From positions 166,505 to 230,504 of the forward strand of contig JAFCMP010000120.1 in assembly GCA_017506865.1 (NCBI GenBank): 64,000 nt of DNA. Reading direction: 5' to 3'. Position numbers and translations under genes: made by a program. Shown here in pieces: positions 3 through 62,200 of this stretch; the first letter of the stretch is position 1, and every line of letters starts with the position of its first letter. A model generated the notes under the pieces. That model searched no databases. It had not been told where the DNA came from and saw nothing but the letters and a program-made list of their open reading frames with translations. This stretch comes from Tribonema minus (lineage: Eukaryota > Sar > Xanthophyceae > Tribonematales > Tribonemataceae).

Positions 3-3000
3 GTGAGGCAGAGGCGTCTTCCAGCTGGAACAGGCGTGGAGGATGTCGCTGCGCGCGCCACGCTCAGCCCTCCCTCATCGCCGGGCACCCCGGATGGTGG
101 ATCGCCGAGCAAAGTGACCGAAGTGACCCTAACCGGAGACATTGACCTCGAGTATCCAGAGCATCACGAGATCACAAAACTCTTTCTGGAGCACGTGGAG
201 GGCGCAGTCAACGCCGTGGTCCCAGTTGTCGCCCCCGTGTTCTTCAGCTTGAAGGCCCTGTTTGGGCTGTCGATCCTGTTCTTCGGCATGACCTTCAAGA
301 GCTTGGCTCTGCACATAATCCTCTTCCAGATCGTCGGCTTCAAGAAAGTTGTTATGGTACGTACAGAAGCAGCATATTTGATCACTGCTTGTGTGTGACA
401 CGCTGCATGACGAAATCAGAGTTGCCCGAGAGGCGGAATTGCTGCTCGAAGTTGCAGAACAGAAACTCATTGTCATCAGTGGTTGCAATCAGCAGGCCTT
501 GTCATCCAGCAAGCAATGGCGAATTCCATGTGCAATGCACCACCTTGTTGCACGCCTATGTTGGAACACTAACCACTTTCACTTTCACAGGCATCCCTCA
601 CCAGCGCAATCGCTGCAGACACTGACCTGCCGTTGAGCAGATGACCAGACCTTCTCTCTGCTGCCTAGAAACAAGTAGACCTGCCGCAACGTAAAGTCGA
701 TAATGGCATGCAGACGCCACGCCGGCATCAGGGATCCAGCCTGGATATACTTCAGAATGCTGTCGGCCGACCCGTCGGCCGACCCGTAGACTATCCCAAG
801 ACACGAGGAACGACACCACCCTGCAAGCAATGCAAAAGTTTAGCTCGGCAGTGCAGCACTGGACATCCCTTCAAGTCGTTTTAACTGCGCTCATACTCAC
901 CGATCGCAGGCGCATTCGCCAGCATCAGAATTCCTATTCACATGGTACTTGGGATGCGACAGACCATTGGCGCGTGCCCCCATTCTAAGACACCAGCCAC
1001 GAAACGCCTCGCAAGCAGTGAGCTTTGCAACGCTGGCCGAGCACTCGTCAGTAGTCCTCTGCGCACGTTGTTGCGTCTGCGCTCGAACGCCTGCTGCATG
1101 CCTCAACTGCCCACCCGCATGCCCTTTAGGGCCTTGACACTGCAGACGCGCCCATCGCACGCCGTGCCTCTGCTGCGCGCGCTGCTATCTTTGAAGCGAT
1201 ACAGCCCTAACCCTAACCCTAACCCTTACCCTAACCCTAAGATACATAGGCCCAACAAAGTCACAAGCAGCAGACCGTGCAGGCGATTGTATTTGATGTC
1301 ATCTAAAAAGCGCGCGAAGGGTGCCGGACTTGGCGCGCGCAGCGCAACCTCATTGCGCGTCGCCCGTGCGCGCACGCGGCAACGCGGCAGTGCTCATCAT
1401 CTTCACCGCAACAGGTTCTGCAAACGTCACAGCAGGTAGATGCGGTGACGATAAGTGCGGCGACAGCGTGCGCATGGCTCATCCTTTGCTGGCCCTGACC
1501 CAACCCCAAATTTATGGACCTCGTGCCACCACAGAACTAGTGTCGCACAGCGCGCCCCTGGCCGTTGCGTGCCCGCACGCAGCAACGCCCGGCGAGGTCC
1601 AAACCCTGAAGAAACACACACTCTGTGCGGGCGCGTACACTCGTACACACTGCGCTGGTTGCGGCGCACTTGCACCTGACCCCCCGCCCCTACTGCTCTC
1701 GCGCGCCAGCACTGGCGCCACCTCGTCGCGCACTACCGATCACACGTTCGAGGTGTGAGCGTACACTCGGACACACTGTGCTGATGGCGCACTTGCACAT
1801 GACACCCCCCTCCCCCCCCCCCCGCCCCCCCCCGACTCCCCTGCGTCAGCACTGGCACCACCTGGTCGCGCACGTCACGCACTACCGGCGCGTGCGCGCG
1901 GCGACGCTGCAGCGCTCGGCAAGGTCCAAACCCTGATGCAACACACATTCTGCGCGTACACATACACTCGCACGGTGCTGGTGGCGCACTTGCACATGAC
2001 GTGCCCCCCCCCCCCCCCCACTCCCAATGACTTGTCCCCCCCCCCCACCCCCCACCCCTCCGGCGCCAACACCGGCACCACCTGGTCGCGCACTGCCGGC
2101 GCGTGCGCGCGGCGACGCAGCAGCGCTCGGCAAAGTCCAAACCCTGACAAAGCACACATTCTGCGCACTCATACACACACACTGTGCTGATGACATGCCC
2201 CCCCCCCCCCCCCCCCCCCCCCCTGCGCCAGCACTGGCACCACCTCGTCGCGCACTACCGGCGCGTGCGCGCGGCGACGCTGCACGCGGCGCGCAGCGCG
2301 CGGCGCACGCTCAAGGAGCGCGAGGACACGGGCGCGCGCGTGCGCGAGCAGGAGGCCATGCTGCGCGACCGCAAGGCCATGCTGGCGGATGGGCGGCTGG
2401 ACGTGGACGAGGCGCGCGCGTTCATGGCCAAGCACAGGGAGCAGGTGCGCAACTAGGGTTAGGGCTAGGTTAGGGTTAGGGTTAGGGTAGGTTGGGATTA
2501 GGGTTAGGGTTAGGGCAGCTGCGAGGAGGCCATGCTGCGCGACCGCAAGGCCATGCTGGCGGATGGGCGGCTCGACGTGGACGAGGCGCGCGCGTTCATG
2601 GCCAAGCACCGGGAGCAGGTGCGCAGTTAGGGCTAGGGGTAGGCTAGTGTTGTAAAAGGTTGGGTTTAGGGTTACGGTTGGGTTCAGGGTTAGGATCAGG
2701 GGTAGGGCAGCTACAAGTGGTGGGGCGACTGGGGGCTTGTTTTGCGGCGCGCGCGTTCATGGCCAAGCACAGGGAGCAGGTGCTCATTAGGGCTAGGGTT
2801 AGGGCTAGGGCAGCTAGGGGGCGCGTGCTCTGCGCTGATTTTGTCCGTTGCGCATTTGTGGGGGGGCATGTAGAGAAGCCAGGGATCTGGACGAAGCAAG
2901 GGATGTGGACGAGGCGCGCGTTCACAGGGAGCAGGTGCGCAATTAGGGTTGAGGTTAGGGCTAGGAGGTTAGGTGTAGGGTTAGGGCGAGTGGTGGGACG

Positions 3001-6000
3001 ACTCGGGGGGGGGGGGGGGGGCTGCCGTGCGCTTGATTTGAGACGCGCGCGTTCATGGCCAAACACAGGGAGCAGGTGCGCAATTACGGCTCGGGTTAGG
3101 GCTGGGGGGGTAGGACTAAGGTTAGGGCGAGTGGTGGGGCGACTCTGGGGGGGTCCTGCTGCATGCTCGTTTTCGTCTGTCCCGCTTTTGCGGGCGAGCA
3201 TGTAGAGGGGCAAGGGGGGCGTGGAGGCATGTGCGTGGCCAAGCACGGGGAGCGTCGCGCAACACCACGCTGCCCTAAGTTTAAGCGAGTGTGGTCCGGC
3301 AAATGGCAGTTACTCAACGGCATGGTGCGGCAGCGCTCGACGTGTTGTGGGGCGATGCTCAGCGTCGCGCAGCACCACGCTGCCCTAAGTTCAAGCGAGT
3401 GTGGTCCGGCAAATGGCAATCAAATTATCTGAGTCAATCAATGGCATGGTGCGGAAGCGCTCGGCATAGCGATGGGGTGATGCTCAGCGCCAGCAGTACT
3501 TCCACGTGCAGCAACCGCGCTCCATTCGCCTCCATCTAGAGAGGGCGCATGTGGCAAATGCTTGCTCCAACCCCAAGGCACATCAGTCGGTGACCCTAGA
3601 GCTAAACCCTAACCAAAGCAAGCAGCGAGCACATGCACACAAGTCTCCGCTCATCTACTTGTACCTACACTGTGTGCGCAGCGGTGGCGACAAGCATTGG
3701 CCTGAGCACCGCTGCCATGCCCCAGCGCTCGTCAGGTGGCTCCCCCTCCCCCTCCCTGTGCGCCGCGCGCTATCTCATGCTACCTTTAACCTAACCCTAA
3801 CCCTGAGCAGCTATGTAAATGCTGGCTGTATGTAGCTATGAACATGCTTTCCCCGGGATAATTTCAACTTTAACCAAAGGCTCGCAGCTCTAGCCTGGCC
3901 GTCATCATGTACTCTGAAGTACAAGCTCCTTTTGAGCCGAGTACCCTAGAACTAGGGGTTGAGGTCAGGGTTAGGGCTGGGATTAGGTCTAGGCTCTGTG
4001 TAGCACCAGGGTCAGCTGAGGTGCCGCTGCTAAGCTAGCTCAGCATCCTCAGTGCTCAGCAGGTGCCCTGGCCTCTTCCCCCTGCCCTGATCTTAACCCC
4101 AAGCCTACGGCGATTGTGAGCCCAAAGTCTTACTCAAAGCCATGCGTGAGTCCGTGCTTGTGTCAACGCTGTTCAACGCCGAGCGCGCAGAGAGCGGTGG
4201 TGCTAGGCACCACGGTCGCAAGCGGGATGCTGCACAGGAGGCTACCACGCTACGCCACAGTGCTCATGTAAATTGCAGCTCGCGTCATCATCGCCGCCCT
4301 CGCGGCCGCGCGCATGCATCCATCCGCCCAGGAAGACCACAGCGGCGGGATCGCGATTAAGTCGTGTATCAGTGTTTGCCTTCTGATGCCACGTTGTGTC
4401 AGTGCTCATACCATCCTCTTCCGCAGCATCGTGGCCCCTCGCAGCTGCGCGTGCGCGCTCGCTGCTTGCTAGCGCTGTGCGCTCGCAAACTGCTAGCGCT
4501 GCACGGCGCTCACCCCCCGTGTCGCACACTGCATCATCGCTCTGCAGCTGCGCGCGCTCGCCGCTCTGGGCACCCACTGCGGCGCGGTATCACGCGCCTG
4601 CATCAGCGCGCATCCCTCCTGTGCGCGCCCTCGCTCCGCCAGTCCACACAAGTCACACGTCAGTGCTCACCCCTTGTGTCGCGCGCTGCATCATCACCGC
4701 TGCGCAGCTGCGCGCGCTCGCGGAGAAGGACGCCGCGCAGGGCGCGACCAAGTCGTCCATCGCGGCGCTGTACTACGCAATACAGTGGTTGCACTTGCAT
4801 CAGTGCCCCCCCCCCCTGTGCGCGGCCTCGCTCCGCAGCTTCAAACAAGTCACGTCAGTGCCCATTTGCTCTCCACTGCGTCGCTGCGCAGCTGCGCGCG
4901 CTGGCGGAGAAGGACGCCGCGCAGGGCGCGACCAAGTCGTCCATCGCGGCGCTGTACTACGCCATCCCGTGGCACGAGATCTGGGTCTCGTTCTGCGACC
5001 TGTACGCGGTGCTGGCGACGAGCGTCGCGTCGACTGCCTTCAAGTCGGCCGCGCGCGTGCAGCTCGCCATTTACTGCGGCAAGGTAAGGTCTTGATTTAC
5101 CAAAGGCAGGCCTGGTGCATACTCCAAAGAATGTTTTCAGATGCATCTACTAATACGTACTCGAAGTGTATATGAACTTCAAGACAGCAGCACGCCTGCA
5201 GCTTGCCATCTGCTGCGGCAAGGTGGGTTGGCACCGCGCCATTGACCTTCAACTTTGCATCTGCCCATACTTCAACTGTGAAGTTGGTCGTAATGGTTTA
5301 CCAAGCACGTATGCAGCGGTCGCGACGAGCGTCGCGTCGACCGCCTTTAAGTCCGCCGCGCGCGTGCAGCTCGCCATCTACTGCGGCAAGGTGGGAGGGC
5401 TGTCGCTTTTCCAAAGGCAGGCCTGCTGCACTCATACTCTCAACAACACCTGTGTGTACAAATTCATTACTTTGAAGTAGTACGTGCGCCGGAGTGTATG
5501 CACTTCAAGTCCGCAGCGCTCGTGCAGCTCGCCATCTACTGTGGCAAGGTGGGTGAGCACTGCGCCGTTGACCTTCAAACTTTGCATCTGCCCATACTTC
5601 AACTGTGAAGTTGGCTCTTGTGTTTGCGACCTATACGCTGTGTTGGCGACGAGTGTCGCGTCGACCGCCTTCAAGTCGGCCGCGTGCGTGCAGCCCGCCA
5701 TCTACTGCGGCAAGGTGTGTGAGCGTGTGGTTGCTCGCTCGTGGCCTTTGCAATAGGCCGCCGCCTGAGCAGTATACTTTGTGTGTGCCTGAAGTGTACA
5801 TGTATGGTTAATGCAGTTCAAAACGGCCCCGCACATGCAGCTTGCCGTCTACTGCAGCCAAGTGAGTGGGCGCCCCCTGCGATCGCTCTCGCTTTTTCAC
5901 CGCATCTGAAGAGCTACACTCAACTTAAACATCACAACTGCCATTTCTGCTCCCAAACCATTCCTCCCGACCAGCGCCTTTGTGGATGTTCCCGCGACTT

Positions 6001-9000
6001 TGACTTCCCACGACATTGACACCACAGCTGGCTTCAACGAACTTCAACACTACCCCCCCCCCCCCCCCTGTACAACCCCCCAATTGTCAGGTTATGAGGG
6101 AGGACGTCCTGGCGCTGCTCGCGCCGGACATCGATCCGCGCGTCTCCGAGGCACTGGATAGCGACGATGTTGACCTTTCACACAACTTCAACCATGCAAC
6201 CTCAACTGAACTTTACCACTGCACCCCCCCCCCCCCCCCCCCCTCCCCCCGTGCCCCCCTGGGTGGCAGGTCGTGAGGGAGGACGTCCCGGCGCTGCTAG
6301 TGCCGTACATCGACCCACCAACTCCAACATGAGATTCGTGCGTCATTTCCGCCCCCCCCCCCCCCCCCCCGACCCCCTCTCCATCAACCCCCAACCGGCA
6401 GGTCGTGAGGGAGGACGTCCTGGCGCTGCTCGCGCCGTACATCTTCAACTTCAACATGAATTTCACTTGATCATCCCCGCCCCCGTGACCCCCCCCCCTC
6501 CCCCCATAAATCCCCCGCACCGTCAGGTCGTGAGGGAGGACGTCCTCGCACTGCTCGCGCCGTACATCGACCCGCGCGTCTCCGAGGTCCTCGAAGATGA
6601 AGACGATGAGCTCGAGGAGCAACTTCAAGTCATCATGAACGGCCCCGCGGCCGCCAAGGCAGCACTCGTCGGTGCCGCCGCGTCAGTCGGCCTCACCGCG
6701 CTGTTCTTCAAGGAGCCGGAGTGGGCGCTTATGCTCGCGCTCGTGCTGCTGGGGTCGCGCATCGTCGCGGAGTTCATCAGCAGGGTGAGCCTGTGCTTAT
6801 ATCAACAAATACAACAAGTGAAGTGTTTAAAACGTAGGCTGGGCTGTAGTGCATCAGTGCTCAACGAGAGTGGGCGCTCATGCTCGCGCTCGTGCTGCTC
6901 GGGTCGCGCATCTTCGCGGAATTCATCAGCAGGGTGAATTTTGAGGGTTACCATATACTTCTATGCTTCAAGTACAGCATTCATGGAGATGGTGGCACTG
7001 TTTGACTCGTGGCCAATTGCCGCCGCAGCGCGGGCCAGGGTCGTTGGTGGAAGGCGTTTGCGGTTAACCTGACCGTGTCACCTAAAGCTCTACAATCTTT
7101 TGACGCGTTTCCATTTTTATGAACTCCGAGTAAGCGTCGATGTAGGCTTAGCTGCGCTGTGGCAACGCTCAATTGCTGAGCGCTCATGCTCGCGCTCGTG
7201 CTGCTCGGGTCGCGCATCATGACAGAGTTCACGAGCAGGGTGAGATCGCACTCAAATCAATGCATCGAGAGTCTAATGAAGGAAGCGTAGTGTTCATGTA
7301 GGCTGAGCTGTAGTGCATCAGTGCTCAACGAGAGTGGGCGCTCATGCGCGCGCTCGTGCTGCTCGGGTCGCGCATCGTGGCGGAGTTCATGAGCAGGTTG
7401 TTTGGGTTAGGGTTAGGGTTAGCCTAACCCTAATCCTCATTGTGCACAACGGCGCGCTTTGTTGCCTTTGAATAACTCAAGAGTAGGGTTGCACAAAGAC
7501 GTACTTGGCCACACAAATACGGCGTATTTGGAGCGTATTTGGCAACCAGGAATACTTCTTGAGCAAACCTCAACATAATCAAATGCTGCGCGAAGGGCGT
7601 ATTCGTGGGGCATGTGGTGAGTGTGCTCGATTCTGAGTATACAGTCCACCACAAAAAAGGCACTTGAACTCAGAAATAAACTTCAAAATACCCTTTTTCG
7701 CAACCCTACTCAAGAGCAATACACAGGTGCACGATGTCCAAGGTACCAGAGCGTGCCGTTAGGAGATGTGCTTTTGTCATTCGTGTTTTCTTAGGGTTGT
7801 GATTAGGGATGGGGTTACATGCTCACTTTATGATGCCCTCAAGACATTGTGCACCTGTGTATTGCGCTGTTGCTATTTTAATGGCCCTGCGCTCTCTGCC
7901 TTCTTTGCGGTTCTACATCTGTGTCCACGTTTCAAGGATGGTGGCGGCGGGCGCGGCTACTTTGACAACAGCTCGCAACTCATCTCAACACTATAGAACA
8001 CATCATGCGCCAGCGTGTTTGTTTCATGTTAAAATTTGTACTTCTATTTGAACCCTTCAGGTTTGTTTTCTGAGCTCACTGCCTCCCGCCCGTACGCGCG
8101 CCTCAGATGGTCGCCTGGCTGATGATGCTCAGGGTTAGGTACGCAACTCATTGAAACTCATTGAACCCGCGTGTACATGTGTAAACCGTGTTTCCTGCTC
8201 TCACTGCCGCCCGCCCGCATATGCGTTCTCAGATGGTGGTCTGGCTAGTCGTGCGCAATGGCAAGGCGCACTGGCTGCGCAAGTCCCAGCTGGCGCTGCT
8301 GCACATGTTCCTGGGCACGTTGGGCTGGTTCTATCACGAGGATGCAGGTGTGCGACATTTCATATATGTTTCCAATCAAAAACCCTCTTTGACGTGCGTA
8401 CAGTGTAAACAAGCTAAATCAAGAGAATCTCAGCGCACTGGACGAATACCAGCTCATGTAGGTGTGACCGAAGTTTCTGCATACCACGAGGACGCAGGCG
8501 CGTGCTATGTATGAACTTTGAAATACTTGATATAATTCCGCTCAAGCACTCTGCGTGACATGTGCAGCTACACCACAAGGCACTGCACCGATCTAGGCAC
8601 ACACGAAGCATACCAGCTCATGTACGTGTGAGCTGCACTTTCGTAGTGTAGGTACAAAACATGAAGCGATCGTCGATGTTCATTAAGGCACTTTCTCAGA
8701 TGGCAAATGTACAGTCTGGCAGCAAGGCACTGGTCGATGCGCTTTTTCGGGCTCTACGTGAGAATTATACCCAAGTAAGTACACGCGTTGTACACCTGCT
8801 GCTGCTCCTGCACTGGAGGCCAACCACACGAGGTCACAATCTCCGCAACAACTACACAGAAATACCCTATGCTGGTTCAGAGACGAGTGTTGCCTGGAAG
8901 CCCTTTTTGCCACCAAAACAGCTTCTACCAAATAGGCTGCTTCTGACAGTAGTCTGGGATGCTGCCAAAGTGTATGCTCACCATGTATGTATGTGACTGT

Positions 9001-48400: not shown

Positions 48401-51400
48401 ATACCGCGCTACCGCCTGCTGCTGGAGACGATGGTGCGGCACACCAAGGACGCGGACCCGCTGTCGCGCGGCCTCGCGGAGAACCTGGCGCAGATGAGCA
48501 CTGTCGTGGACCAGATCAACCAGGACGTGCACAAGATGGAGCGCCGCAACCGCGTGCTCGCGCTGCAGTACCAGGTGCGCCCCCCTGCTGCTGCTTTGCT
48601 CGTGCGATAAGCAAAAGCCTGCATTGTAAGCCATTGCGCGTCACGGCACCGCATGTTGGATTTGCATGGGGTACCGCCAGTGTGGAGCATGCAGGATCAG
48701 ATCAACCAGGACGTGCACAAGGTGGAGCGCTGCAACCGCGTGCTCGCGCTGCAGTATCAGGTGCGCGCCGCAACACTTGCGCATACATCAATGTACTTGA
48801 AAGCATACGCTTAGCAAGTATACTTCGGAAGTATGTGTTTGTGAAGTGTGATGCTTGTTCGCAGTTTGCAGGGCACAGCGCCCCAACCTGACACTTTTCC
48901 ACATGCTCTGCTCGTTCTCAGCCTAACCCTAACCCTAACCCTAACCCACAGATTGCGGAGGTGTGGCTCGTAGTATCACCGATTTGCAGTAGCTACATGC
49001 CGTGTGCTGAGCCATGCCACAGTTTGCGGAGGAGCGGCGATAGTGTTGACATGGCCAGTGCAAAAAAACATCACCTTTGGAAGCACTCGAAAGTTTCACT
49101 TCTTGAAGTATAATATAATCACAATGAAATGAATGCACGTCGTGTGGAAGTATCCCTTCTTGAAGTTTTACAATGCTACTTTTAATCACATCTGAAGCAA
49201 ATGCGTGCCGTGTGCTGAGCCATGCTGCGCAGTTTGCGGAGGAATGGGTGGCGATGGTGTTGGCACAACAACAACGTGTCATGTCCATCACCTTCTGAAG
49301 TGCTTCGATGTACAATGTAATACATTCACACCTGCAGTTATTAATGCCTGCCCTGTGCTGAGCCATGCTGCGCAGTTTGCGGAGGAGTGGGTGGCGGCGG
49401 CGCGCACGCTCGTCAAGGACGGGCCGCTGACCAAGGTCTGCAGGGGAGGCCCTCGGCGGTTTCAGTTTGTACTCTTCAGCGACCTCCTTGTGTACGGCTC
49501 GGAGACGCTCATGGGCAAGTGGGGCAAGCGCCAGTACAAGGTGCGTACCCCCACCCTGCTGTACACACAGTACACATGAACTACTGGATGAACTACGAGA
49601 TGTACTGGTATTGACCTCCTCGTGTGCGGCTCGGAGACCCTCGTGGGCAAGTGGGGCAAGCGCCAGTACAAGGTGCGTACCCACCGTACAGTACACATGG
49701 ACTACTGGATGAACTGATAGATGTACCGTAATTGACCTCCTCATGTATGGCTCGGAGACGCTCATGAGCAAGTGGGGCAAGCGCCAGTACAAGGTGCGTA
49801 CCCGCCGTACAGTTGGACTTTTGCATGCGCACTAACATTGCAACTCAAGCATCGCGGCCTGCTCATCGCGTGCGCAGATGGACCGCGCACTGGATCTAGC
49901 GTGCTGCCACGTGGTTGACGGCCTCGCCCCAGGCGCAGTCGTGCCCAATTGGCATGTCGCCACTTGAAATTGAAAAGTTGAAGTTTGCATTTTTTTGTTT
50001 CTCTGCGCGCGCACAAAAATGGTACCCCATGCGCTCACGCATCACCACAACCTGCTCTCACGCGCAGATGAACCGCGCGTTGGAGTTGGCGCGCTGCTAC
50101 GTGGTCGACGGCCTCGCCCCGGGTGCAGTCGTGCCTGCGGGCGCCGAGGAGGCGGCGTTCATGGTGCTGTCCGCGGACAAGTGCTTCGTCGTGCAGGCGT
50201 CTGACGCGGTGGAGAAGGCGGAGTGGGTGGCAGCGCTCCGGGGAGGTGAGCTCAGGGTTAGGGTTAGGGTTGGGGTTTAGGTCAAAGCTTAGGGTCTCGA
50301 TTAGGGTTCAGTTCAGGAGGATAGGGTGGCTGCCTTCATGTGGCGGACTAGTGCTACGTCGTGCAGGCGTCCGATGCAGTGGAGACGGTTGAGTGGGTGG
50401 CAGCGCTCCGCGGAGGTGGGGTTGGCAGCGCTCCGCGGAGGTGGGGTTTGGTTTTCTAACTTAGAAAAGCCTTGGCTTTTTCGTTTCGATTTTAGGTCAA
50501 GGGTTAGGGTGTGGATTAGTTTAAGCTTTAAAGAATAGGGTGGCTGCCTCCATGTGGCGGACTAGTGCTGTGTCGTGCAGGCGATGCGTTTGGAGAAGGC
50601 GGAGTGGGTGGCAGCGCTCCGGGGAGGTGAGCTTAGGGTTAGGGTTTAGGGTCAGGGTTGGGTTTCAGGTCAAAGGTTAGGGTCTGAAGTAGCGTTGGGG
50701 CAAGGGGTTGGGCGGGCAGTGCAAATGCTGCGTCGTGCAGGCGGCGTGTCCGGAGAGGCGCAGTGCGTGGCAACGCTCCGGGGAGGTGAGCTTACCGTTC
50801 TAAGTGCAAAAATTAAGGGGTTGAGAAAGGGTTTAGGTCGAACCTTAGCATCTCAATTGGGGTTGACGTCAGGAGGATAGGGTGGCCGCCTTCATGAGGC
50901 GGACTAGTGCTACGTCGTGCAGGCGGCGCGTTTCAAGAAGGCGGAGTGGGTGGCAACGCTCCGGGGGGGTGAGCTTACTGTTATGAATGAAAGGGTTAGG
51001 GTTGGATTTTTATTCAGATCATAGGTTAGGGTCTGAACTAGGGTTGGGGCAAGGGGGTGGGTGGTTGGCTGCCTTCGTGGCCGACAAGAGCATCGTCATG
51101 CAGGCGTCTGACGCGGTGGAGAAGGCGGACTGGGTTGCTCCGGGGGGGTGAGCATAAGGTTTGAGCTGGTGTCAGGGTCAGGCGATGGCGGGCGCGCCAT
51201 GTTCAGTACACGCGACTTCAAGTTGTTCACATTACGAGCACTCTGAGGTATGTAGAATGGCAGTGCCAGGCGCTGATTCCAAGTGCCGCAGCCACGGATG
51301 CCCTGGCGACCAAGGTGATTCGCATCGCCGCCGCCGGACTCGCGGGCGGCAGCGCTGGTGCCAACTTCAGTACCTATAACTTCAAATTGTTCAAATCACG

Positions 51401-54400
51401 AGCACTCTGAAGTATGCAGAATTGCAGTGCCAAGTGCGCTGTTTGCACCGCTACGCCCCTGCTGCTGCGCACGTAGTGATGGACGCCGTATTGACCAAGG
51501 TGATGCACGACGCTGCCCGACCGGCGGGCAACTTCAATACACATGACTAACAGTCAATCAAATCATGAGCATATGAACGTTGCTATTTAGGTAGGAAGAG
51601 CGCTGATTGCACCGATGCGATTCCCCTGCTGCTGTGCGCGCAGCGATGGACGCCCTGGCGACGAAAGTCATTCACGCTGCTGGCGGCCCTTCCGGCGATG
51701 GCGGCGGCGGCTCCGGCCACGGCAGTCTGCTCAAGGTGCCACTCATGGCCAAGGCCAAAAAGAAAAAAGCAGCGGCGGCGGCGGCCGCGGCGATGGCGGT
51801 GGCAGTGGAAGACACCAGCGCTTTGGTGAGTGCGCGGGGCCCCACAACTTCAATATCATACTTCAACTGTTTGTTACTGAACGCTCATGGCTGAGGCCAA
51901 GAAGAAGAAAGCCGCGGCGGCGGCGGCCGCGGCGATGGCGGTGGCGGTGGAGGACACCAACGCTCTGGTGAGCACGCGTCACAACTTCAAGTGTATACTT
52001 CAGCTCTTTTTTTGTTGGACTTCAACTTGTCTGGTGCGTGTGGCGCGCAACAATGCAGTGTAAGCACAGGCTCAGCGCCTATGGACCTGTGTTCGTGTCT
52101 GCGCTCGCGTGCGAATGTGCAGCAATCGTGCAGCCTGTGGGTGATGAGCAACTGAGGGGAGCTTCACGTGTTGCAATAGAGTTCATGTATGCTGATCGGG
52201 CCCATATGTGTTTGCGCCCTTGCTCTCTTGCGCATTCCCGCAGCATTGCCAGCCTGTGTTTGCGCCCTTGCTCTCTCGCGCATTCCCGCTGCATGCCAGC
52301 CTGTGGGTCTTGTGTTGAGGTATGAAGCTCATATAGTCCGGTCCAGCTCATACGTATGCCCCCCCCCTCCCCCCATTTCACGCATCATCGCAGCGGTCGT
52401 GCAGCCTGTGGGTGATGAGCACTGAGGCGCGCGTCACGTGTTGAAGTATGAATATCATAATGTCTGGTCACGCTCATACGTATGCTAAGCATACTCTTCT
52501 CATTTCCTCTCTTTCGCATCATTGCAGCGGCCGTTCAGCCTGTGGGTGATGAGCACCGAGGGGCGTTTCACATCTTGAAGTATGAAGATCTTATTGTCTG
52601 GTCTATGTAGTTAAGCTCACATGTGCATTTATCCCGTCTCTCACGCATCCTCGCAGCGGTCATGCAGCCTGTGGGTGATGAACACCGAGAGACGCGTCAC
52701 ATCTTCAAGTATGAAGTTCACATTGTCTGGTCAAGCTCATACATAAGCTTACCCCCTCTCTCACGCATCATCGCAGCGGTGGTGCAGCCTATGGGTGATG
52801 AGCACCGAGGAGCGCGTCACGTGTTGAAGTATCAATGTCATACTGTCTGGTTAAGCTCATACGCATGCTAAGCATACTTGTCTTATCCCCCCATTTCGCC
52901 ATTATCACAGCGGTCGTGCAGCCTGTGGGTAATGGGCACGGAGGGGCGCGTCACACGTTGAAGTATGAAGTTCATATTGTTTTCAAGCTCGTACAGTTCA
53001 TATTGTTTTCAAGCTCATACGCTTACAAGTGTATCATACGTATCCCCCCCCCCCCCCCCCCCCCTTTCGCCATCATCACAGCGGTCGTGCAGCCTATGGG
53101 TGATGAGCACTGAGGGACGCGTCACGCGCGCGGCATTCCTGCTACCGCGCGCGCCGTCGCTGCGCGTCACCTACCGCAGCGTCCTCGGCAGCCCGCGGCA
53201 GCGCGCGCTGTTCCGGCAGGTGCGTCACATGTTGAAGTATGAAGTTCAAACTGACTGGTCGAGCGGCAGCGCGCGCTGTTCCGGCAGGTGCATTGGTGTC
53301 TATTTTTTTGCGTTTTGGTGGATCTTTCGTTTTGATGGCAGATGCTCGCATATGCTAAGGTCGTCCATGTTCCGGCGGGTGCGAACGAGCTTTCTTGCTT
53401 TAGGTGAAACACCAGTTGCGATGCTTGTGCTTTGAGGCATGTCATGTGATGCGCCCTTTCGTATTTGTCTCTTGTCAAAACACACCGCTGTGCGCAGCAC
53501 CTGGAAGCCACGCACCGCAAGACACGCACCGCTGGAAAAACACCCGTGTGCATACTTCAATTGACTAACTCAAGTGCACAACCTAGGACTTTTTTACTTC
53601 ACGCATGGTCTTCACAAATGTCACCCCGCCCAACCTGCCCCTTGGCTGCAACGATGCAGCACCTGGAGGCCACACTTTGCACTGCCAGGAAACCGTGTGT
53701 GTCATTCAAACGCATATTCTCTACTGAAGTATAGAAGTATACAAGTGGACGTGACCGTGAAAATCATGGACGGCTCCTCACGAATTTCATGCTAACCCCC
53801 TCCCCCGCTGCGCCGCAGCACCTGGGGGCCATGCACTGCGAGACGCACTGCCAGGAAACCACGCGTGCTGTTCAAATGCATATACTTCGTAGTACTCTAT
53901 GTACACGTGCGCATACCATGGACTCTGAAGTTGAACTCGTTGAATGTCCGGACAATTTACCTAATGCCTCCCCCGCCCCCGCCCATCCCCTCGCTGCAAC
54001 GACGCAGCATCTGGAGGCCACGCGCTGCGAGGAGAACCTTGACTTCTGCAAGTTCAAATGCATGTACTCTTATGTACACGCGCGCACATACCACTTTGAA
54101 GTCGATCCCGTTGAATCTACGGACGATTTTCCCTCATGTCTCCCCCGCCCATCCCCTCGCTGCAACGAGGCAGCACCTGGAGGCCACGCACTGCGAGGAG
54201 AATCTCGACTTCTGCGAGGCAGTCGCCAAGTACGCCGCCGCCGCCGCCAGCGGTGCGGGGCAGCAGGGGCGCGTCGCTGCGGCGCGCGCGCTCATGGACC
54301 GGTTTATTGCTGACGGCGCGCCGCAGCAGGTCAACCTCAGCGAGAGCATGCGGGAGGAGGTGCGTGTGCGCGCTGTTGTGCGTGTTTCGCTGCTGCAGAG

Positions 54401-56727
54401 CTTGCAGCTGCTGCTGCTGCCACTGCCGCTGCTGCTCGGGTGTTGCAGCAGGTCAACCTCAGCAAGAGCACGAGGGAGGAGGTGCGTGTGCGCGCTGTTG
54501 CGGTATGCGCTGTGGTACATGTTGCTGCTGCCGCTGCTGCTGCGCGTGCTGCCGCTGCTGCTGTTGCTGCTGCTGCTACAGCGGATGATGCTGCAAGCGC
54601 CCCTGCTGACGTTGCGCTGCAGAGGAGGTGTGTATGCGTTGTTACAGTGCTCAGCTCGCTGCTGCCTCCACCGCCGCTGCTGCGGCAGCACCAGCAGCAG
54701 CTGATGCCGCTGACTGCACTTACAACAATTACTGAATGGCCGGCTATAACCGTGCGCCGTGCATGCCGGACCTGTTGCAGTTGCCAGGGCACGTCTTCCC
54801 AAACCCTAACCCTAAGTGTGCTACGCGCTCCGATGCCAGCGGCTTCCTCTCCTTGTTCGCAGCGTTGCCAAGCTGATGCTGACCGCAAAACTCACCAGTC
54901 TCCTCCACGCGCCATGCTTTAAGAGGGGGTCAAAAATGTTGAAAGAAGGCCTTTCTGGACCGGCAGAACTGTGCTGTGCAAGCAGCACTGCACCACACAC
55001 CACCAGATCCATGCAAGAGTGATCCATTCATGTGCGAAGAGCAATGCAGTGTCACTCCAACTTCACTGCTCCACAATTCTAGCCTTAGGGCAACAGGCAA
55101 TTCTACCACAAACCGCTCTTGCCGGCGCACGCCGCTCAGTCGTCGTTTATTCCCTACAGTAACCGCAATGAGAGCCCGCTAGCCAGGCACATGGCGCCTA
55201 ACCTAACTCTAACCTCAACCCTAAAACCTGACCGTAACCCCAAATCTCTGTCTGTGCGCGCGGTAACATGGGCCTAACCCTAACCTAAACCCTAAAACCT
55301 GACCGCAATCCCAAACCCCTGCCTGTATGCGCGCAGCAACATGGCGCCTATGCTAACCCTAACCTCAACCCAGAAACCTGACCATAACCCTGAAACTCTG
55401 TCTGCGCGCGCGCGGCAACATGGCCTCAACATGTCCCCAACCCTAACCTCAACCCTAAAGCAACCGTAACCCTGAACCTCTCTCTGCGCACGCGCAGCAA
55501 CATGGCTTTAACCCTAACCTCAACCCTAGAACCTGACCAAAATCTGAACCTGTCTCTGCCGCGCACGCGGCAACATTGGCTAATCGGCAACATGGCCCTT
55601 ATTTAACCCTGACTTCAATCCATGATCCCAATTGTAATCCTGAACCTCTCTCTCAACGTGCGCGTGAGGCTAACCCTAAAACCCAACCTTAGCCATACAC
55701 CTCTAACCTACTACATACTCCTACTGTAAACCTAGCCTCAACCCTAAAACCTATCCGTAACCCTAAACCTCTCTCTGCATGCGCGCGTGCGGCGTAGGTT
55801 GTCGCGGCGCACGCGTCCGGGCGCTGCGGCCCGGAGCTCTTCTCCACCGCCGTCGCCGAGGCCTCGCGCATGCTTGAGAGCGACTCCTTCGCGCGCTTCC
55901 GCTCGGCGCCGCTCTTTGCGGAACTGCTCGCGCTCGCCGCGCCGCGCACCGGCCCCCCCGGCGTCCTCGCTTTTGCGGACCTCGAAGAGGCGGCGCCGCA
56001 GTCCCCCCTGGGGGCGAGCCCCCTCTCGTCCCCTCCGCTGTCCCCGCAGTCCGTCTCGCCGGCCAGCGTGTCGCCCGCGCAGTCGGCGGCGGCGGCGGCG
56101 GCCGCGGCGGCAGCGGCGGCGTCGCCGCTGGCGCCGGCGCCGTCGCGGTGGCGCGGCGTGCGCGGCGGCAGCGGCGGCGGCGGCGGCAGCAACAGCGTCG
56201 GCAGCACCGGCAGCGGCAGCAGCGCTGCCGTGACGCTCAGCACGCACTCGCGCTCGCCGCCGCCGCCGCCCGCGCCCGCCGCCGTGCGCGCGGCGCTGCT
56301 GTCGCAGCGGCTGAAGCCCGCCGCATTGCCGCCGCCGCCGCCGCCCGCGCCGCCGCTCGTCTGGGAGATGGGTCCGCACGGCCCGGTGGTGCCGGCGGGC
56401 GCGGGACCGCCGCCGTGGCTCGTGCGCATGACGCTCACTCCGGGCCCTGAGGGCCTCGGCATGAATCTCGAGCTGGGGGACGCCGGCGAGTGCGTGGTTG
56501 CGGGGTACCGGCAGCTTGGGCGCGGCCTGCTGAACCCCGCGCAGGAGGGCGGTGTGCTGCCGGGCGACGTGCTGCTGGAGTGCGGCGGCGCGGCGTGCGG
56601 CGGCGCGTTCGACGCCGCGGTCGAGCGGCTGCGCGCCGCCGCGGAGGGCGCGCCGCTCGCGCTCGTCGTGCGCCGCGCGTGCGCTCCGCCGTCGCTGGAG
56701 GCGGCGAACTGGGCAGCACTCGGCTAG
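45484..56727 (+). CDS. Rho guanine-nucleotide exchange factor with DH, PH, RGS and PDZ domains
   Basis: Predicted activator of Rho-type GTPases with a built-in G-alpha-facing module. Exons: 45484-46179, 48272-48574, 49376-49540, 50068-50245, 51644-51825, 53082-53219, 54174-54359, 55798-56727 (TAG); 925 residues; phases 0,0,0,1,0,0,0. The DH domain (about 101-333) has ELLSSERTYVACLETL and the conserved LLIMPVQRIPRYRLLLE, with an acidic/Gly insert at 138-172. The PH domain (about 334-465) has FVLFSDLLVYG and the invariant Trp441 in AEWVAAL; a KAKKKK/poly-Ala linker follows. The RGS domain (about 535-665) has VLGSPRQRALF, THCEENLDF, LMDRFIADGAPQQVNLS and MLESDSFARFRSAPLF. After an Ala/Gly/Pro-rich linker, a PDZ domain (about 822-912) has carboxylate-loop residues GLGM at 835-838. 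The N-terminus MGNVAG could be myristoylated, but position 6 is Gly rather than Ser/Thr. The ATG follows a CAG and a poly-C tract, so a 5'UTR intron may end there. Domain calls are firm; the biology is inference. Confidence 0.9.
46180..46800 (+). repeat. seven or eight tandem donor copies after RhoGEF exon 1
   Basis: The exon end coding KMYGTFVRNFE plus GTGCGTGC recurs near 46289-46332, 46450, 46490, 46530, 46618, 46670 and 46722-46770, with increasing decay and TTAGGG DNA near 46428. Confidence 0.9.
46215..46282 (+). repeat. dispersed intronic element, copy D (truncated)
   Basis: Only the first half of the element (AATCAAAAGATCGCAGAGCT and GAGCCGCAAGTGC) is present, in RhoGEF intron 1 next to the first donor copy. 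Confidence 0.78.
46795..47745. repeat. interstitial telomeric repeats in RhoGEF intron 1
   Basis: CCCTAA blocks at about 46798-46912 and 47094-47130, and TTAGGG blocks at about 47178-47240 and 47473-47510, with mixed orientation near 47718-47742. Many units are degenerate. Confidence 0.87.
47960..48271 (+). repeat. tandem acceptor copies before RhoGEF exon 2
   Basis: Exon-2 starts coding LEARPAFA(V/A)FLKA recur at about 47987-48050 and 48108-48166, before the true acceptor at 48270-48271. The copies diverge after FLKA. Confidence 0.9.
48575..48775 (+). repeat. donor copy after RhoGEF exon 2
   Basis: A 70-bp copy of the exon end (coding QINQDVHK) with an intact GTGCGC donor lies at 48693-48765. 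Confidence 0.88.
48915..49375 (+). repeat. tandem acceptor copies before RhoGEF exon 3
   Basis: CAG plus TTTGCGGAGGA-type starts recur near 48951, 49018 and 49224 before the true one at 49376. The first is preceded by four CCCTAA units. The spacers repeat GTGTGCTGAGCCATGC. Confidence 0.88.
49541..49800 (+). repeat. donor copies after RhoGEF exon 3
   Basis: Two ~60-bp copies of the exon end (GGGGCAAGCGCCAGTACAAG) with donor GTGCGTACC at 49613-49673 and 49735-49795. The spacers repeat CAGTACACATG. Confidence 0.92.
49870..50067 (+). repeat. acceptor copy before RhoGEF exon 4
   Basis: A ~70-bp copy of the exon-4 start with its own GCGCAG lies at 49873-49945 and still encodes a similar peptide (HVVDGLAPGAVVP). 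Confidence 0.9.
50246..51160 (+). repeat. five tandem donor copies after RhoGEF exon 4 with telomeric spacers
   Basis: The exon end coding KAEWVAALRG plus GGTGAGC recurs near 50355-50420, 50575-50630, 50738-50790, 50918-50975 and 51070-51150. The spacers consist of degenerate TTAGGG DNA and GAGGATAGGGTGGC(T/C)GCC. Confidence 0.9.
51280..51643 (+). repeat. tandem acceptor copies before RhoGEF exon 5
   Basis: Copies of the exon start (GATGCCCTGGCGACCAAGGT) lie near 51294 and 51478. The spacers repeat TTCAA(A/G)TTGTTCA and ACGAGCACTCTGA. Confidence 0.85.
51826..51975 (+). repeat. donor copy after RhoGEF exon 5
   Basis: An 80-bp copy of the Lys/Ala-coding exon end with GTGAGC donor at 51887-51971. 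Confidence 0.9.
52110..53081 (+). repeat. six tandem acceptor copies before RhoGEF exon 6
   Basis: Units of CATCATCGCAGCGG, TGCAGCCTGTGGGTGATGAG and (G)CGCGTCAC occur near 52119, 52392, 52525, 52655, 52776 and 52910, before the true exon at 53082. The spacers share GAAGTATGAAGTTCAT and GTCTGGTCAAGCTCATACG. Confidence 0.93.
53220..53400 (+). repeat. donor copies after RhoGEF exon 6
   Basis: The exon end CGCGCGCTGTTCCGGCAG|GTGC is copied at 53262-53290, with a relic at about 53365-53385. Confidence 0.85.
53490..54173 (+). repeat. four tandem acceptor copies before RhoGEF exon 7
   Basis: CAGCACCTGGAGGCCACGC-type starts occur near 53498, 53659, 53816 and 54005 before the true exon at 54174. Spacing is about 160-190 bp, with shared TTCAAATGCATATACT spacers. 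Confidence 0.92.
54360..54490 (+). repeat. donor copy after RhoGEF exon 7
   Basis: CAGCAGGTCAACCTCAGC through GAGGAG|GTGCGTGTGCGCG is repeated at 54447-54500. Confidence 0.88.
55190..55797 (+). repeat. telomere-like minisatellite before RhoGEF exon 8
   Basis: About eight units of roughly 65-80 bp combine AACCCTAACCTCAACCCTAA, a variable ACCTGACC(G/A)TAACCC part and GCGCGCGGCAACATGG. The array ends at the true acceptor (GGCGTAG, 55791-55797). Confidence 0.9.
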
Positions 56728-59231: not shown

Positions 59232-59240
59232 CCCCCCCCA
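56728..59240. other. intergenic region between convergent RhoGEF and ARM genes
   Basis: 3' flanks of both genes, with poly-C/poly-G tracts near 56737-56752, 57419-57435 and 59010-59025. Short ORFs here did not resemble known proteins. It ends with the CAG run listed next. Confidence 0.5.
59166..59231. repeat. CAG trinucleotide run
   Basis: About 22 uninterrupted CAG units (CTG on the minus strand) just past the stop codon of the minus-strand ARM gene, so probably in its 3'UTR. Confidence 0.93.
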
Positions 59241-62200
59241 TCAGCGCCCGCTGCCGCGCGGTATGAGCTCCGGCGGCGGCCGCGGCGCCGCTGCTGCCGC
59301 GACCACGTGGCCCAAGCCAGCATCGTGCAGCTGCGCATCCAACCCCGCCACATCCAGAGCGTCAGCGCCGTCGTCCATGGCAACACCAGCGGCGCTGCCA
59401 GCCGCCGCCGCCGCCGCCGCCGCTGCCTCCGCTGCTGCCGCCGCCGCTGCCGCGCCAGGGTCGTCGTCGTCGGCCGCAGCAGCGGCGGCGGCAGCAACGT
59501 CCAAAGCTGCGCGCTCCTCGCCGCTCACGGCGCGCCGGAACAGCGCGCACGCCTCGCGCACGTCGGGGCTGTCGGGGTACGCGCGCGCCGCCGCCTCCAC
59601 CGCCGCCGGCGCGTCGCCGTGCAGCGCGCGCAAGTCGCGCGCCGCCGCCGCGCCGCGCGCCGCCGCCGCCGCGTCGCCCCCCGCCGCCGTGCTGCCCGCC
59701 GCCGCCGCCGCCGCCGCCGCCGCGGCGGCCGCCGCCTCCTCCGCCGCGTCGCCCGCCGCCGCCGCCGCCGCTGCCGCAGATGCCGCCGCTTCCGCCGGCA
59801 GCGCCACCGCGGCGGCGCGCGCCAGTACCGCCAGGACGCGTACGCTGCGCAGCTGGATTTGCTGAGCGTTGGGGCGGTTGGAGCCGGCACTGTAGGCGCC
59901 CATGGTGCGCACGACGGCGGCGCACGCGCCCACGGTCAGGAGGAGCTTGGCGGTGGCGGCGGCGTCGGCGTCGGCGCCGCTGCCGACGAGCGTCGCCGCG
60001 GTGAGGAGCGCGTCCATCTGCGTCACACATTGAAGCTCAGTCGGTGCAAACCGTATATCTGATTCTGGAGACGATTCAACAGATCGTAGAGCTCTAGGTG
60101 ACAAGGTGTGATCAGCAACCAGTGCCTTCCACCGATGACAGTGGTCGCCGCTGCTGCATCAATCGGCCATGAGTCAAACAGTGCCACCAAATGCAAGGGG
60201 AGCCAAAAGACTTCTATGTGCAAGCTTTCAACGTCCGGGGCATGGGTGCTCAGTATGCGTACCTGAATGTATGGGTCGTCCGGGAAGCCGCGCAGCGCCG
60301 CCGCAAACGCCGCGCACACGCCCGCCGAGCGCAGCTTTGCGCAGCCATCGCCTTCGCCGCCGCCGCCGCCGCCGCTGCCGCCGCCGCCGCCGCGGCAGCG
60401 GTACGCCAGCGACGCCGCCGCCGCCCAGCCGCTCGCCTGCGCCGCGGCGTCGCGCGGCGACGCGAGCAGCGCCGCCACCGCCGCCTCGCACGCGCCGCAC
60501 GCCGCGAGCCGCGCCCTGCTGCGGTCGTCGCGCGCCATGAGGCGCAGCGCGCGCAGCAGGGCGCGCCGCGCGTCCGCCGCTGCTGCCGCGCTGCCGCCGC
60601 CGCTGCTGCCGCCGCGCGACGCGTTGCGCAGCGCCTGCGCGAGCGCCTCGCAGCCAGTCTCTCTGGCGATGAGGGATCTGCGGCGCGGCGGCGCGGTGCG
60701 CGTGCGCGCGGGTGCGTGGGTGCGCGTGCGGTGGCTTCGTCATTTCACGCGCATCGGCTTAGTTTAGAATTAGCCTGCAGGGCCGCAGTCGACCTGTTGT
60801 GCCCACCATTTGCAAAAAACAAAAGTGTTGGAACACAACACAGTATGAGATCCACAAAAGCGTGCGGCACATGCTAGAAGGGACACAGGCGGCGTGCTTC
60901 TGGACTATTGTGGCCCACAGGACACCACTTCACTACTGGCGTCGAGCAGTGAGCCCCAAAGTTGCCACGGCTGCAGTGTCGTGACAGGGTGTGAGGCAAA
61001 GTTCGGGGAGCGTAGTGAATGGAGACAGCGCTTGAAAGTACGGGCATGGGCGGATGCTCCTGCTATACGAACGCGGGAAGCCGCCAAGATTTGACTAATG
61101 AGCTTGCTATGCTCAGCCATGGTCAACAACACAATTGAAGTTGCACCTGCCTGCCGCTGCGAGCGTGTGCCGCCTAGAACAGCGTGATTGTCGCAATGGC
61201 TGGCCCGGACGCGCCGCCGTGATTGCGCAACAGAAGCGGGGACCCTGACGCGCAACGCACGTGTATGTATGTATCACCGCACCGTCAGCTGTGGGACAGG
61301 GCACGAAAAAAGAAGTGCAACCCGTGTTTCAGCCACTACGGACTGCTGGCCACGGGGCCACCGCCCCAGTTCCTGGGATGCCCCTGCCGGAGTGTGACGA
61401 TACCACGTACGCCATCATCAAGAAACGAACGCCGCACAGCAGCATCACCGCTGGCAGTTCAGACAATGCCCTACTGTACAGCACGACGTGGGATCCTGGC
61501 AGCCCCTCTGGAAGCACGGTTGCATGCAGGTCCACTGCTGTCAAAATGGGCTGCTCGCACGCAAGTTGCAGGTATCTGAGAGAAGCCCAGTCCCTCGTCG
61601 CATACTCCCTGAAACTGCAGGCGCTTCCGTGAAGACACTGCGGGCGAATCAATCATCAATCACAAACATGATTCGCGGCGACCACGGTTATTGGGGAAAG
61701 GCGCTTACGGCTAACCATCCCTTGTCACCTCAGTAGAGCTCTACGATCCTTTGATTCGTTTTCATTTACCATCAGGCCGGGCGGCGCACCTGTAAACGGT
61801 GTTTGTTCAAAGCGACTTCCTGAAACTGCAGGCGCTTCCGTGAAGACGCTGCGGGCGAATCAATCACTATTCACAATCATGAATCCCCAATCAGGAGGCC
61901 GGGCTGCGCACCTGTAGACGGCCCGCGCGCCGAGCAGCTCCACCGTCCTCGCCGCCTCCGCCTGCACCCCCGCGCTCTGCGGGAACTGCCGCATCGCAGC
62001 GACCACCGCCGCGCACGCCCCCGCATCCCCCAGCGCGCCTATCGCCTCCGCGCCGCCGCACGCCAGCGCGTTCGCCAGCCGCAGGCCCAGCAGCGCAATG
62101 TCGTGAACGCCCGCGTGCCGCTTGACGGCGACGGCCACGCTCGCGCACGCCGCTGCGCCCAGGCTGGCTTTGCCGTTGTTGTCTTCAGCAAAGGGCGCCA

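Follow-up and report, generated by a model that had tools for sequence, protein, structure and literature searches.

The window analysed here is a 64,000-nucleotide stretch of DNA from the xanthophycean Tribonema minus (assembly GCA_017506865.1, contig JAFCMP010000120.1, positions 166,505–230,504, forward strand), all of which was read and in which seven gene models (A, N, T, L, K, R and M; 56 exon edges) were searched for copies of their own splice junctions. Genes A (7 exons), T (4 exons; TspO/MBR family), K (2 exons; Aurora-type kinase) and R (8 exons; a RhoGEF gene) have no internal stops, and gene L (8 exons; aldo/keto reductase family) has a single stop, at the first codon taken. The model of gene N has a frame mismatch following exon 1, and that of gene M, which has ARM repeats, is provisional. 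The join in gene K is supported by a 90%-identical relative in which the same residues are joined at this junction, and six of the seven joins in gene R fall within gap-free stretches of the alignment to a related protein.

We show that the exon–intron borders of these genes are widely repeated inside their own introns, as a sequence-only reading of this DNA had proposed. At 31 of the 56 exon edges (29 of 52 when gene N intron 1 and gene M are set aside), the adjoining intron holds a copy that outscores all 21–27 introns of other genes used as the control for that junction, about 2–3 being expected by rank alone. With BLAST at E ≤ 0.05, 81 copies are found at 34 of the 56 junctions (Table 1), eight of them at E 0.001 or worse; every one of the seven genes has at least one copy by BLAST, and all except gene M have one by exon-edge score. 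Most positive junctions (25 of 31) score 23.5–58, higher than any piece taken from an exon interior; the remaining six lie at 18.5–20, and two of these barely beat the control (L intron 2 donor, 19.0 versus 18.5; R intron 2 acceptor, 19.0 versus 17.5). Only 6 of 79 exon-interior pieces have an above-control match in their own intron, all weak, and exon interiors are thus not copied as often as junctions. The first junction named in the earlier reading, at 356/357, proved to have no copy in its own intron. Sharing between genes of the kind seen with introners was not found: against introns of other genes, the 31 positive junctions score 12–18.5 at best, which is control level, and the gene R intron 3 donor junction, used as a genome query, listed only the three places of its own array. 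The rule that donor copies lie downstream of the true donor and acceptor copies upstream of the true acceptor is consistent with profile fragments read by eye; the junction searches, confined to the adjoining intron and the gene's own strand, are one-sided by design.

Table 1. Copies of splice junctions within adjoining introns of the window. Acceptors are given by the first exon base and donor copies by the first intron base.
Feature	Position	Strand	True site and copies	Support and remarks
A intron 1 acceptor array	1710..2284	+	exon start 2232; copies 1710, 1850, 2070	exon-edge score, BLAST
A intron 2 donor array	2350..3260	+	exon end 2444; copies 2619, 2780, 2935, 3076, 3256 (3256 without GT)	exon-edge score, BLAST
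A intron 2 acceptor array	4548..4972	+	exon start 4892; copies 4548, 4708	exon-edge score, BLAST
A intron 3 donor array	4982..5870	+	exon end 5083; copies 5223, 5391, 5549, 5715, 5862	exon-edge score, BLAST
A intron 3 acceptor array	6091..6587	+	exon start 6527; copies 6091, 6270, 6402	exon-edge score, BLAST
A intron 4 donor array	6719..7400	+	exon end 6784; copies 6934, 7240, 7398 (7398 without GT)	exon-edge score, BLAST
A intron 4 acceptor	8107..8246	+	exon start 8233; copy 8107, 14 exon bases	BLAST; exon-edge score not above control
A intron 6 acceptor	10131..10444	+	exon start 10384; copy 10131	exon-edge score, BLAST
N intron 3 donor array	14003..14338	-	exon end 14288; copies 14225, 14078, 14003	exon-edge score, BLAST; spacer p 0.045
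N intron 2 acceptor array	14394..14817	-	exon start 14439; copies 14661, 14817	exon-edge score, BLAST
N intron 2 donor	15366..15694	-	exon end 15618; copy 15366	exon-edge score, BLAST
N intron 1 donor	17166..17308	-	exon end 17262; copy 17166	exon-edge score, BLAST; modelled exons join out of frame
T intron 1 acceptor	21420..21513	+	exon start 21500; weak copy 21420 without AG	BLAST; spacer not repeated
T intron 2 donor array	21584..22088	+	exon end 21607; copies 21750, 22070 (22070 without GT)	exon-edge score, BLAST
L intron 2 donor	29767..30007	+	exon end 29787; copy 29910	exon-edge score, BLAST
L intron 3 donor	30821..31067	+	exon end 30848; copy 31067	exon-edge score, BLAST; spacer not repeated
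L intron 4 acceptor array, period ~190	32507..33206	+	exon start 33148; copies 32575, 32766, 32955 (32955 without AG)	exon-edge score, BLAST
L intron 5 acceptor	34308..34673	+	exon start 34610; copy 34413	exon-edge score, BLAST
K donor array	38803..39600	+	exon end 38822; copies 38987, 39086, 39265, 39373, 39397, 39583 (last three E 0.01-0.05)	exon-edge score, BLAST
K acceptor	40617..40876	+	exon start 40869; copy 40617, 8 exon bases only	BLAST; exon-edge score not above control
R intron 1 donor array	46142..46710	+	exon end 46179; copies 46335, 46473, 46646, 46704	exon-edge score, BLAST; spacer repetition not significant
R intron 1 acceptor	48106..48334	+	exon start 48272; copy 48106	exon-edge score, BLAST; deposited protein codes from 47734-48105
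R intron 2 donor	48508..48766	+	exon end 48574; copy 48761	exon-edge score, BLAST; spacer not repeated
R intron 2 acceptor array	48952..49396	+	exon start 49376; copies 48952 (E 0.03), 49023, 49233	exon-edge score, BLAST
R intron 3 donor array	49481..49813	+	exon end 49540; copies 49673, 49794	exon-edge score, BLAST, genome search
R intron 3 acceptor	49878..50135	+	exon start 50068; copy 49878	exon-edge score, BLAST; spacer repetition not significant
R intron 4 donor array	50173..51178	+	exon end 50245; copies 50416, 50441, 50627, 50786, 50969, 51153 (51153 without GT)	exon-edge score, BLAST
R intron 4 acceptor array	51292..51682	+	exon start 51644; copies 51292, 51477	exon-edge score, BLAST
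R intron 5 donor	51742..51970	+	exon end 51825; copy 51968	exon-edge score, BLAST; deposited protein codes from 51896-51967
R intron 5 acceptor array, period 120-134	52118..53126	+	exon start 53082; copies 52123, 52394, 52528, 52657, 52777, 52911	exon-edge score, BLAST; spacers similar by eye, p 0.129
R intron 6 donor	53195..53380	+	exon end 53219; copies 53288, 53379 (E 0.04)	exon-edge score, BLAST; spacer not repeated
R intron 6 acceptor array, period ~166	53498..54218	+	exon start 54174; copies 53498, 53660, 53819, 54008	exon-edge score, BLAST
R intron 7 donor	54323..54500	+	exon end 54359; copy 54482	exon-edge score, BLAST
M donor (provisional model)	61780..61921	-	exon end 61912; copy 61789, ~10 exon bases	BLAST; exon-edge score not above control; spacer repeated

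The repeated unit is usually larger than the junction. The spacer between true site and copy is itself repeated at 26 of the 34 junctions (p ≤ 0.01) and at one more with p 0.045 (seven are not significant, p > 0.05); the exon edge and its splice signal are copied as first read, but in most cases together with intron. The nearest copy is shifted by 90–210 bp at 26 of 34 junctions (median 163.5), bearing out the spacing of about 100–200 bp originally noted, and the same range holds 119 of 177 nearest shifts across the window and six regions of 10 kb. In these seven sequences, near HSPs are direct in 256 cases and inverted in 8 after filtering against low complexity and telomere-like repeats, and one first-order Markov resample of each sequence gave no near direct repeat. 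The copies thus have the direct orientation and proximity of local tandem duplications, with a whole unit, spacer included, lying head to tail at 26 of the 34 junctions. A unit of about 165 bp would suit nucleosome- or Okazaki-sized lesions; nothing directly on such a link was found in the literature searched.

Border copies also occur elsewhere in the genome, at 12 of 54 junctions of actin and chaperonin genes on other Tribonema minus contigs. This survey drew 31 consecutive exon pairs from 94 profile matches (two not covered, two without a junction, 27 placed by a scoring rule that leaves a few sites doubtful), counted no copy-like match as an exon, and excluded paralogues as well as matches that were not contiguous; kinesin matches were read by eye only.

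Substitutions in the copies fit near-neutral decay, and the outer exon edge is conserved. When each junction was represented by the copy whose spacer matched best and pairs with a spacer score of at least 19 were pooled (26 of 34), corrected divergence was 0.096 in the exon part against 0.092 for half the spacer divergence (12 of 26 below half), and neutral pairs simulated from the real spacers and exon edges and aligned in the same way gave a similar ratio. Because spacers were aligned locally, over a mean of 73% of their length, their divergence is underestimated and the copies could be evolving more slowly than neutral. With gene M left out, substitutions confined to the copies number 41/633, 31/677 and 54/554 at codon positions 1, 2 and 3, and those confined to the true exon 2/192, 0/206 and 11/172; first and second positions together thus change about ten times faster in copies (72/1310 versus 2/398). 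Strong selection on the copies, which the codon-position counts and a sharp drop in identity at the junction might suggest, was rejected, as singleton counts and the substitution comparison fit near-neutral decay; a codon-position bias remains among copy singletons (p 0.0015), which changes in the exon lineage could cause, and comparisons between copies give 171/115/218. The impression that farther copies are more decayed did not hold up (Spearman -0.07, p 0.53; in 13 of 18 arrays identity is lower for the farthest copy than for the nearest one, p 0.10).

We consider these copies to be, probably, remnants of position-blind local direct duplications, mostly with a shift of 90–210 bp, of which those that preserve the protein were kept and decay near-neutrally within introns. 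Local direct duplication in the nuclear genome, whatever its molecular cause, would be blind to gene structure, and its protein-neutral outcomes would be duplication within an intron or across one exon–intron border, selection removing those inside exons. After a border-crossing event the outer site would stay in use, probably because exons are recognized as units, and the inner copy would become intron and decay much like neutral intron DNA, staying recognizable because the source exon edge is conserved. Accumulated repeats would lengthen introns and fill them with near-normal decoys. The protein-preserving filter also accounts for the side on which copies lie, downstream for donors and upstream for acceptors, any other placement lying inside the exon. 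Purifying selection would explain the rarity of copies from exon interiors no less well than targeting would.

That the border is a target, as opposed to the place where duplications survive, seems doubtful. Under such a scheme, a mechanism linked to splicing or to the DNA of the border (R-loops, RNA-templated repair or patch repair) would copy the exon edge and splice signal into the intron. Ungapped identity of donor copies indeed falls from about 0.9 on the exon side to 0.39 at intron +8, and spacers are not significantly repeated at 7 of 34 junctions; they are repeated, however, at 26, and part of the drop arises from indels and unconstrained intron, given that pooled substitutions fit neutral decay. 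Duplication families in 54 introns (gene M left out), counted with filters for low complexity and telomere-like repeats, number 44 at borders and 28 in interiors, a border share of 0.61 that exceeds the 0.29 predicted by uniform placement at present intron length. When duplication was simulated without regard to position and events that alter the protein were discarded, on random sequence with parameters of our own setting as in the other simulations of duplication, the border share came to 0.98, 0.75, 0.54 and 0.42 under four settings, a range that spans the observed value, and in this model targeting is not needed. Introns with border families are longer (p 0.0015), and longer introns also give more room; of the proposal that recurrent border duplication lengthens introns, local duplication across borders stands, without the border as a required target.

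Copied exon pieces are also short (mean 46 bp, against a mean shift of 159), exceeding 0.6 of the shift at 0 of 34 junctions, and at 1 of 12 in a set requiring at least 20 aligned bases (not the 12 positives of the actin and chaperonin survey), compared with about 20% in simulation. With the same repeat filters, 258,779 bases yielded 128 pairs at ≥ 93% identity, not one of which extends over an entire unit, and ongoing steady duplication in its plain form, for which simulation gives 12–15%, was rejected; a quiet period abolishes such pairs in simulation, and assembly collapse may be a source of their absence. Breakpoints and microhomology would have to be read from full-unit pairs of high identity, of which there is none. 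The short exon pieces and the lack of young full-unit pairs would suit junction-targeted copying. The missing young full-unit repeats, the few long exon pieces and the few indels in copied exon pieces (gaps per 100 sites, 0.25 versus 6.65 in spacers, far under the prediction from one indel rate) all speak against the reading favoured here, which does not explain them.

It is unlikely that the copies serve as alternative sites or exons, or as stepping stones in recursive splicing of long introns. Many could work as sites: GT is retained in 42 of 46 donor copies and AG in 32 of 35 acceptor copies, and (gene M left out) median scores are 7.55 in copies versus 8.80 in true donors (p 0.29) and 4.07 versus 5.90 in acceptors (p 0.066), far above random GT or AG. 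This upholds the description of the introns as a field of decoys, and the deposited gene R protein takes two copies as exons; the indel deficit and codon-position bias point the same way. Against function, use of a copy would keep the frame in only 1 of 73 cases (genes M and N left out), GT and AG survive in copies at about the rate of the flanking exon bases, and codon positions 1 and 2 change freely. Frame and codon changes are thus not those of alternative or mutually exclusive exons, although the residual bias remains. Both RhoGEF inserts are missing from a related protein, the second falling in a variable stretch, and from the sequence the copies appear to have misled the published gene model. 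A combined scheme, in which border-focused, nucleosome-sized duplication builds ladders of near-normal splice sites used for recursive intron removal, would account for the short exon pieces, indel deficit and retained site strength; we hold it quite unlikely.

Slightly less probable again is concerted evolution, in which gene conversion with the true exon would have kept the exon blocks of older duplicates similar. Exon blocks of 94–98% identity do stand beside strongly diverged spacers, and between copies the exon side is more alike than the intron side (0.84 versus 0.68; 78 pairs; random 0.57), to which the indel deficit and absent young full-unit pairs may be added. Simple neutral decay nevertheless fits the pooled substitutions, and some closest pairs are similarly diverged on both sides (exon/intron identity 0.90/0.87 at the A intron 3 donor and 0.86/0.83 at the N intron 3 donor) or better kept on the intron side (0.70/0.93 at the L intron 4 acceptor). 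An assembly artefact is highly improbable, since false duplications would be near-identical, whereas the pooled pairs diverge by about 9% between copy and true edge and by about 16% between spacers, and the pattern recurs on other contigs.

Position-blind duplication hidden by splicing suggests a route to longer introns without mobile elements. The arrays amount to many natural tests of how cells ignore decoys near real sites in strength, and other gene models in Tribonema minus may include copies as exons, the deposited RhoGEF protein being an apparent case. We found no description of such border-copy arrays in the literature searched, which covers few subscription papers. In potato RdRp, a tandem duplication over the intron 1/exon 2 border gave rise to a new spliced intron as well as extra exon sequence (Ma et al. 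2016, PMC4974935). The border-crossing segment and the splice signals carried along in the copy are alike, whereas in Tribonema minus the outer sites would stay in use, the copies become intron and arrays stand at many junctions. Repair-mediated duplications in vertebrates, closely linked and at most 619 bp long, some copying intron splice sites (Pace et al. 2009, PMC2671141), were reported as individual events, in contrast to the arrays of several copies that occupy a large share of the junctions in this alga. Intron gain by tandem duplication, which creates new introns from exon (reviewed in PMC3443670, listing Gao and Lynch 2009 as a reference), is likewise genic tandem duplication hidden by splicing; the Tribonema minus copies, however, sit in existing introns and are not assigned to this class here. 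Finally, direct repeats of 4–30 bp near splice sites, reported with a comparison of 5′ and 3′ border surroundings (Rogers and Bendich 2025, PMC11782384), are similarly repeats at intron borders, but in Tribonema minus each border is repeated inside its own intron, together with tens of exon bases.

The copied splice borders of Tribonema minus are a true feature of its genome that extends well beyond the window. Gene models for this xanthophyte alga (158 Mb in 554 contigs; window at 166505-230504 of contig C120) were made from reading frames and GT/AG signals. With the introns of other genes as the control, and a copy counted as positive when an edge's own intron ranks first, 31 of 56 exon edges in seven models (A, T, K, R, L, N and M) are repeated in their own intron, 25 with scores of 23.5-58 and six of 18.5-20, versus 6 of 79 exon-interior 60-mers (14.5-21) under the same control. 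Junctions are thus copied into adjoining introns, as the sequence-only reading had claimed, and exon-internal segments are not duplicated as often. BLAST (E ≤ 0.05) yields 81 copies at 34 of the 56 junctions, 8 of the 81 with E of 0.001 or worse. The shift from the true border (the splice site of the gene model) to the nearest copy has a median of 163.5 bp and falls within 90-210 bp in 26 of 34 cases, in keeping with the proposed spacing of about 100-200 bp; successive copies are spaced by a median of 158 bp (38 of 47 within 90-210). The suggestion that farther copies are more decayed found no clear trend among the window copies, and at the first junction that reading listed (window 356/357) no copy was found in its own intron.

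Usable signals persist in many copies, with GT present at 42 of the 46 donors and AG at 32 of the 35 acceptors among them. Donor matrix scores of copies (median 7.55, mean 6.28) lie near those of true sites (median 8.80, mean 8.19; P = 0.29) and far above random intronic GT (median -1.93); acceptor copies score 4.07 versus 5.90 for true sites (P = 0.066) and -1.43 for random AG. The introns therefore do hold the field of decoy sites that had been described, and splicing at a copy would preserve an open frame in 1 of 73 cases.

Models A, T, K and R contain no internal stop; L has a single stop, at the first codon taken, N has a frame mismatch after exon 1, and M is provisional. Pfam matches support K as a kinase, T as TspO/MBR, L as an aldo/keto reductase, M as ARM and R as a RhoGEF, with below-threshold matches to PH and PDZ pieces in R and to an exo/endonuclease in N. 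Gene R is 99% identical to the deposited T. minus protein JKP88DRAFT_311119, in which PF00615, presumably RGS, is also present. In the deposited protein, window 47734-48105 and 51896-51967 are coding, and a tail translated from 54866-54919 forms its end. Both inserts are absent from a metagenome relative (41% identity across the aligned region), which runs on into the C-terminal region, and 6 of the 7 joins of our model lie within ungapped stretches aligned to it; the second insert sits in a variable stretch and is therefore less telling. Two border copies appear to have been taken as exons in the deposited protein, with loss of its C-terminal PDZ-like part. Some gene R transcripts may possibly use copies as splice sites.

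Further sequence features of the window (window positions; minus strand where marked)
Feature	Positions	Remark
Dispersed ~120-bp element	6998-7115 (-), 31588-31702, 36440-36560, 46221-46280, 60071-60181, 61675-61766 (-)	six window places
Runs of ≥2 TTAGGG or CCCTAA units, first nine	1205, 1229, 2470, 2498, 7407, 9439, 9531, 14032, 14051	
Runs of ≥2 TTAGGG or CCCTAA units, other nine	35035, 35656, 40105, 46431, 47474, 48927, 50258, 50633, 54804	
Long poly-C tracts	40590-40617, 40840-40868, 53044-53071	shortly upstream of true or copied acceptors, by reading

The dispersed element, 82-89% identical across the window to its 36440 instance and intronic at five of six places, has at least 41 matches in the genome, nearly all at 98-99% (40 of 2522 candidates scored), and appears to be a young, high-copy element. 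All 18 TTAGGG/CCCTAA runs fall within modelled introns, and these introns occupy about half the window. At the poly-C acceptors it is as if the pyrimidine tract were almost pure C. By eye, the sequence past the exon 6 donor of gene R (52500-53265) resembles the intron part of that exon's upstream acceptor array, with one HSP (52694-52736 versus 53222-53264), as if the whole exon and its flanks had once been duplicated and the middle later lost.

The spacer, that is, the intron stretch between true border and nearest copy, is repeated beside a copy at 26 of 34 junctions (P ≤ 0.01) and at one further junction with P = 0.045, repetition being non-significant at 7 of 34; in most cases, therefore, an exon edge is copied together with intron sequence. 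When copies are compared with the true border without gaps, identity falls sharply at the junction. Gapped local alignment of 26 of the 34 pairs gives 0.090 substitutions per site in exon parts and 0.164 in spacers, the latter a lower bound because alignments span on average 73% of the spacer. Corrected divergence of exon parts (0.096) versus half the spacer value (0.092) in these pairs is the expectation for a neutral copy next to an unchanged exon. Singletons per site at codon positions 1, 2 and 3 are 0.065, 0.046 and 0.097 in copies and 0.010, 0.000 and 0.064 in true exons; constraint therefore lies on the outer edge. Copies show an excess at third positions (P = 0.0015) that exon-lineage changes, seen against the oldest copy, might explain, and some constraint on copies is conceivable. 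Between copies within an array (78 pairs), identity is 0.84 on the exon side and 0.68 on the intron side (random, 0.57), some of the closest pairs being equally kept on both; a purely neutral picture accounts only in part for the better-kept exon side.

Copied borders are best explained by ordinary local duplication, whose products would then be filtered by splicing and selection. In 54 introns, 44 repeat families cross the border and 28 are interior, a border share of 61% versus the 29% predicted by uniform placement at present intron length; that prediction is offset because border copies remain visible longer and because in introns grown from short ones the first events must have been at the border. 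When position-blind duplication is simulated with a filter preserving the protein, the border share comes out at 0.98 and 0.75 under growth and at 0.54 and 0.42 at steady length, spanning the observed share, so duplication targeted at the border is not needed, although it could still be at work. The presence of border families goes with greater intron length (P = 0.0015), such families occurring in 1 of 7 introns below 400 bp and in 30 of the remaining 47; the earlier claim that border duplication lengthens introns holds as an association, but long introns offer more room anyway.

Elsewhere in the genome, among 31 consecutive exon pairs chosen from actin and TCP-1 matches (27 introns placeable), the own-intron copy scores above all mismatched introns at 12 of 54 junctions. 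Repeated profile fragments inspected by eye have the exon end in common if they lie downstream and the exon start in common if they lie upstream, on contigs such as C538, C51, C5, C135, C246 and C511. Each of six hand-picked 10-kb regions contains between 4 and 30 non-redundant near direct repeat pairs; together with the window, the nearest repeat shift is 90-210 bp in 119 of 177, and near HSPs are 256 direct versus 8 inverted. Among the alignments viewed from four such regions, several resemble coding edges adjoining GT or AG.

Some observations fit plain duplication poorly. Across 258,779 bases, 128 direct pairs reach ≥93% identity, and not one of them is a full-unit pair (highest ratio, 0.74). 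Simulations of steady duplication put full-unit pairs at 12-15%; with a quiet time of 0.05 or 0.10 substitutions per site, the counts are 0 of 63 and 0 of 28. Either duplication has paused, or the youngest units were lost in assembly, or the process is other than plain duplication. Gaps per 100 sites are 0.25 in exon parts versus 6.65 in spacers, and simulated indel rates approaching the spacer value yield exon-part values of about 2-4; part of the difference may be due to homopolymer runs in spacers. An exon piece exceeding 0.6 of the shift is present at 0 of 34 junctions in the window and at 1 of 12 elsewhere, and at 20 of 91 and 10 of 53 in simulations, possibly through selection against copies that are long enough to pass as exons. 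The interest of the arrays rests on these misfits, their extent and their decoy strength.

In the literature searched, with incomplete coverage, we came across no description of border arrays as main intron content. A review discusses tandem duplication as an origin of new introns (PMC3443670) and a 2025 paper describes short direct repeats close to splice sites (PMC11782384). The nearest single case to the T. minus arrays is a duplication crossing a border in potato (PMC4974935), and the nearest process is repair-mediated duplication, by which splice sites were copied in vertebrates (PMC2671141).
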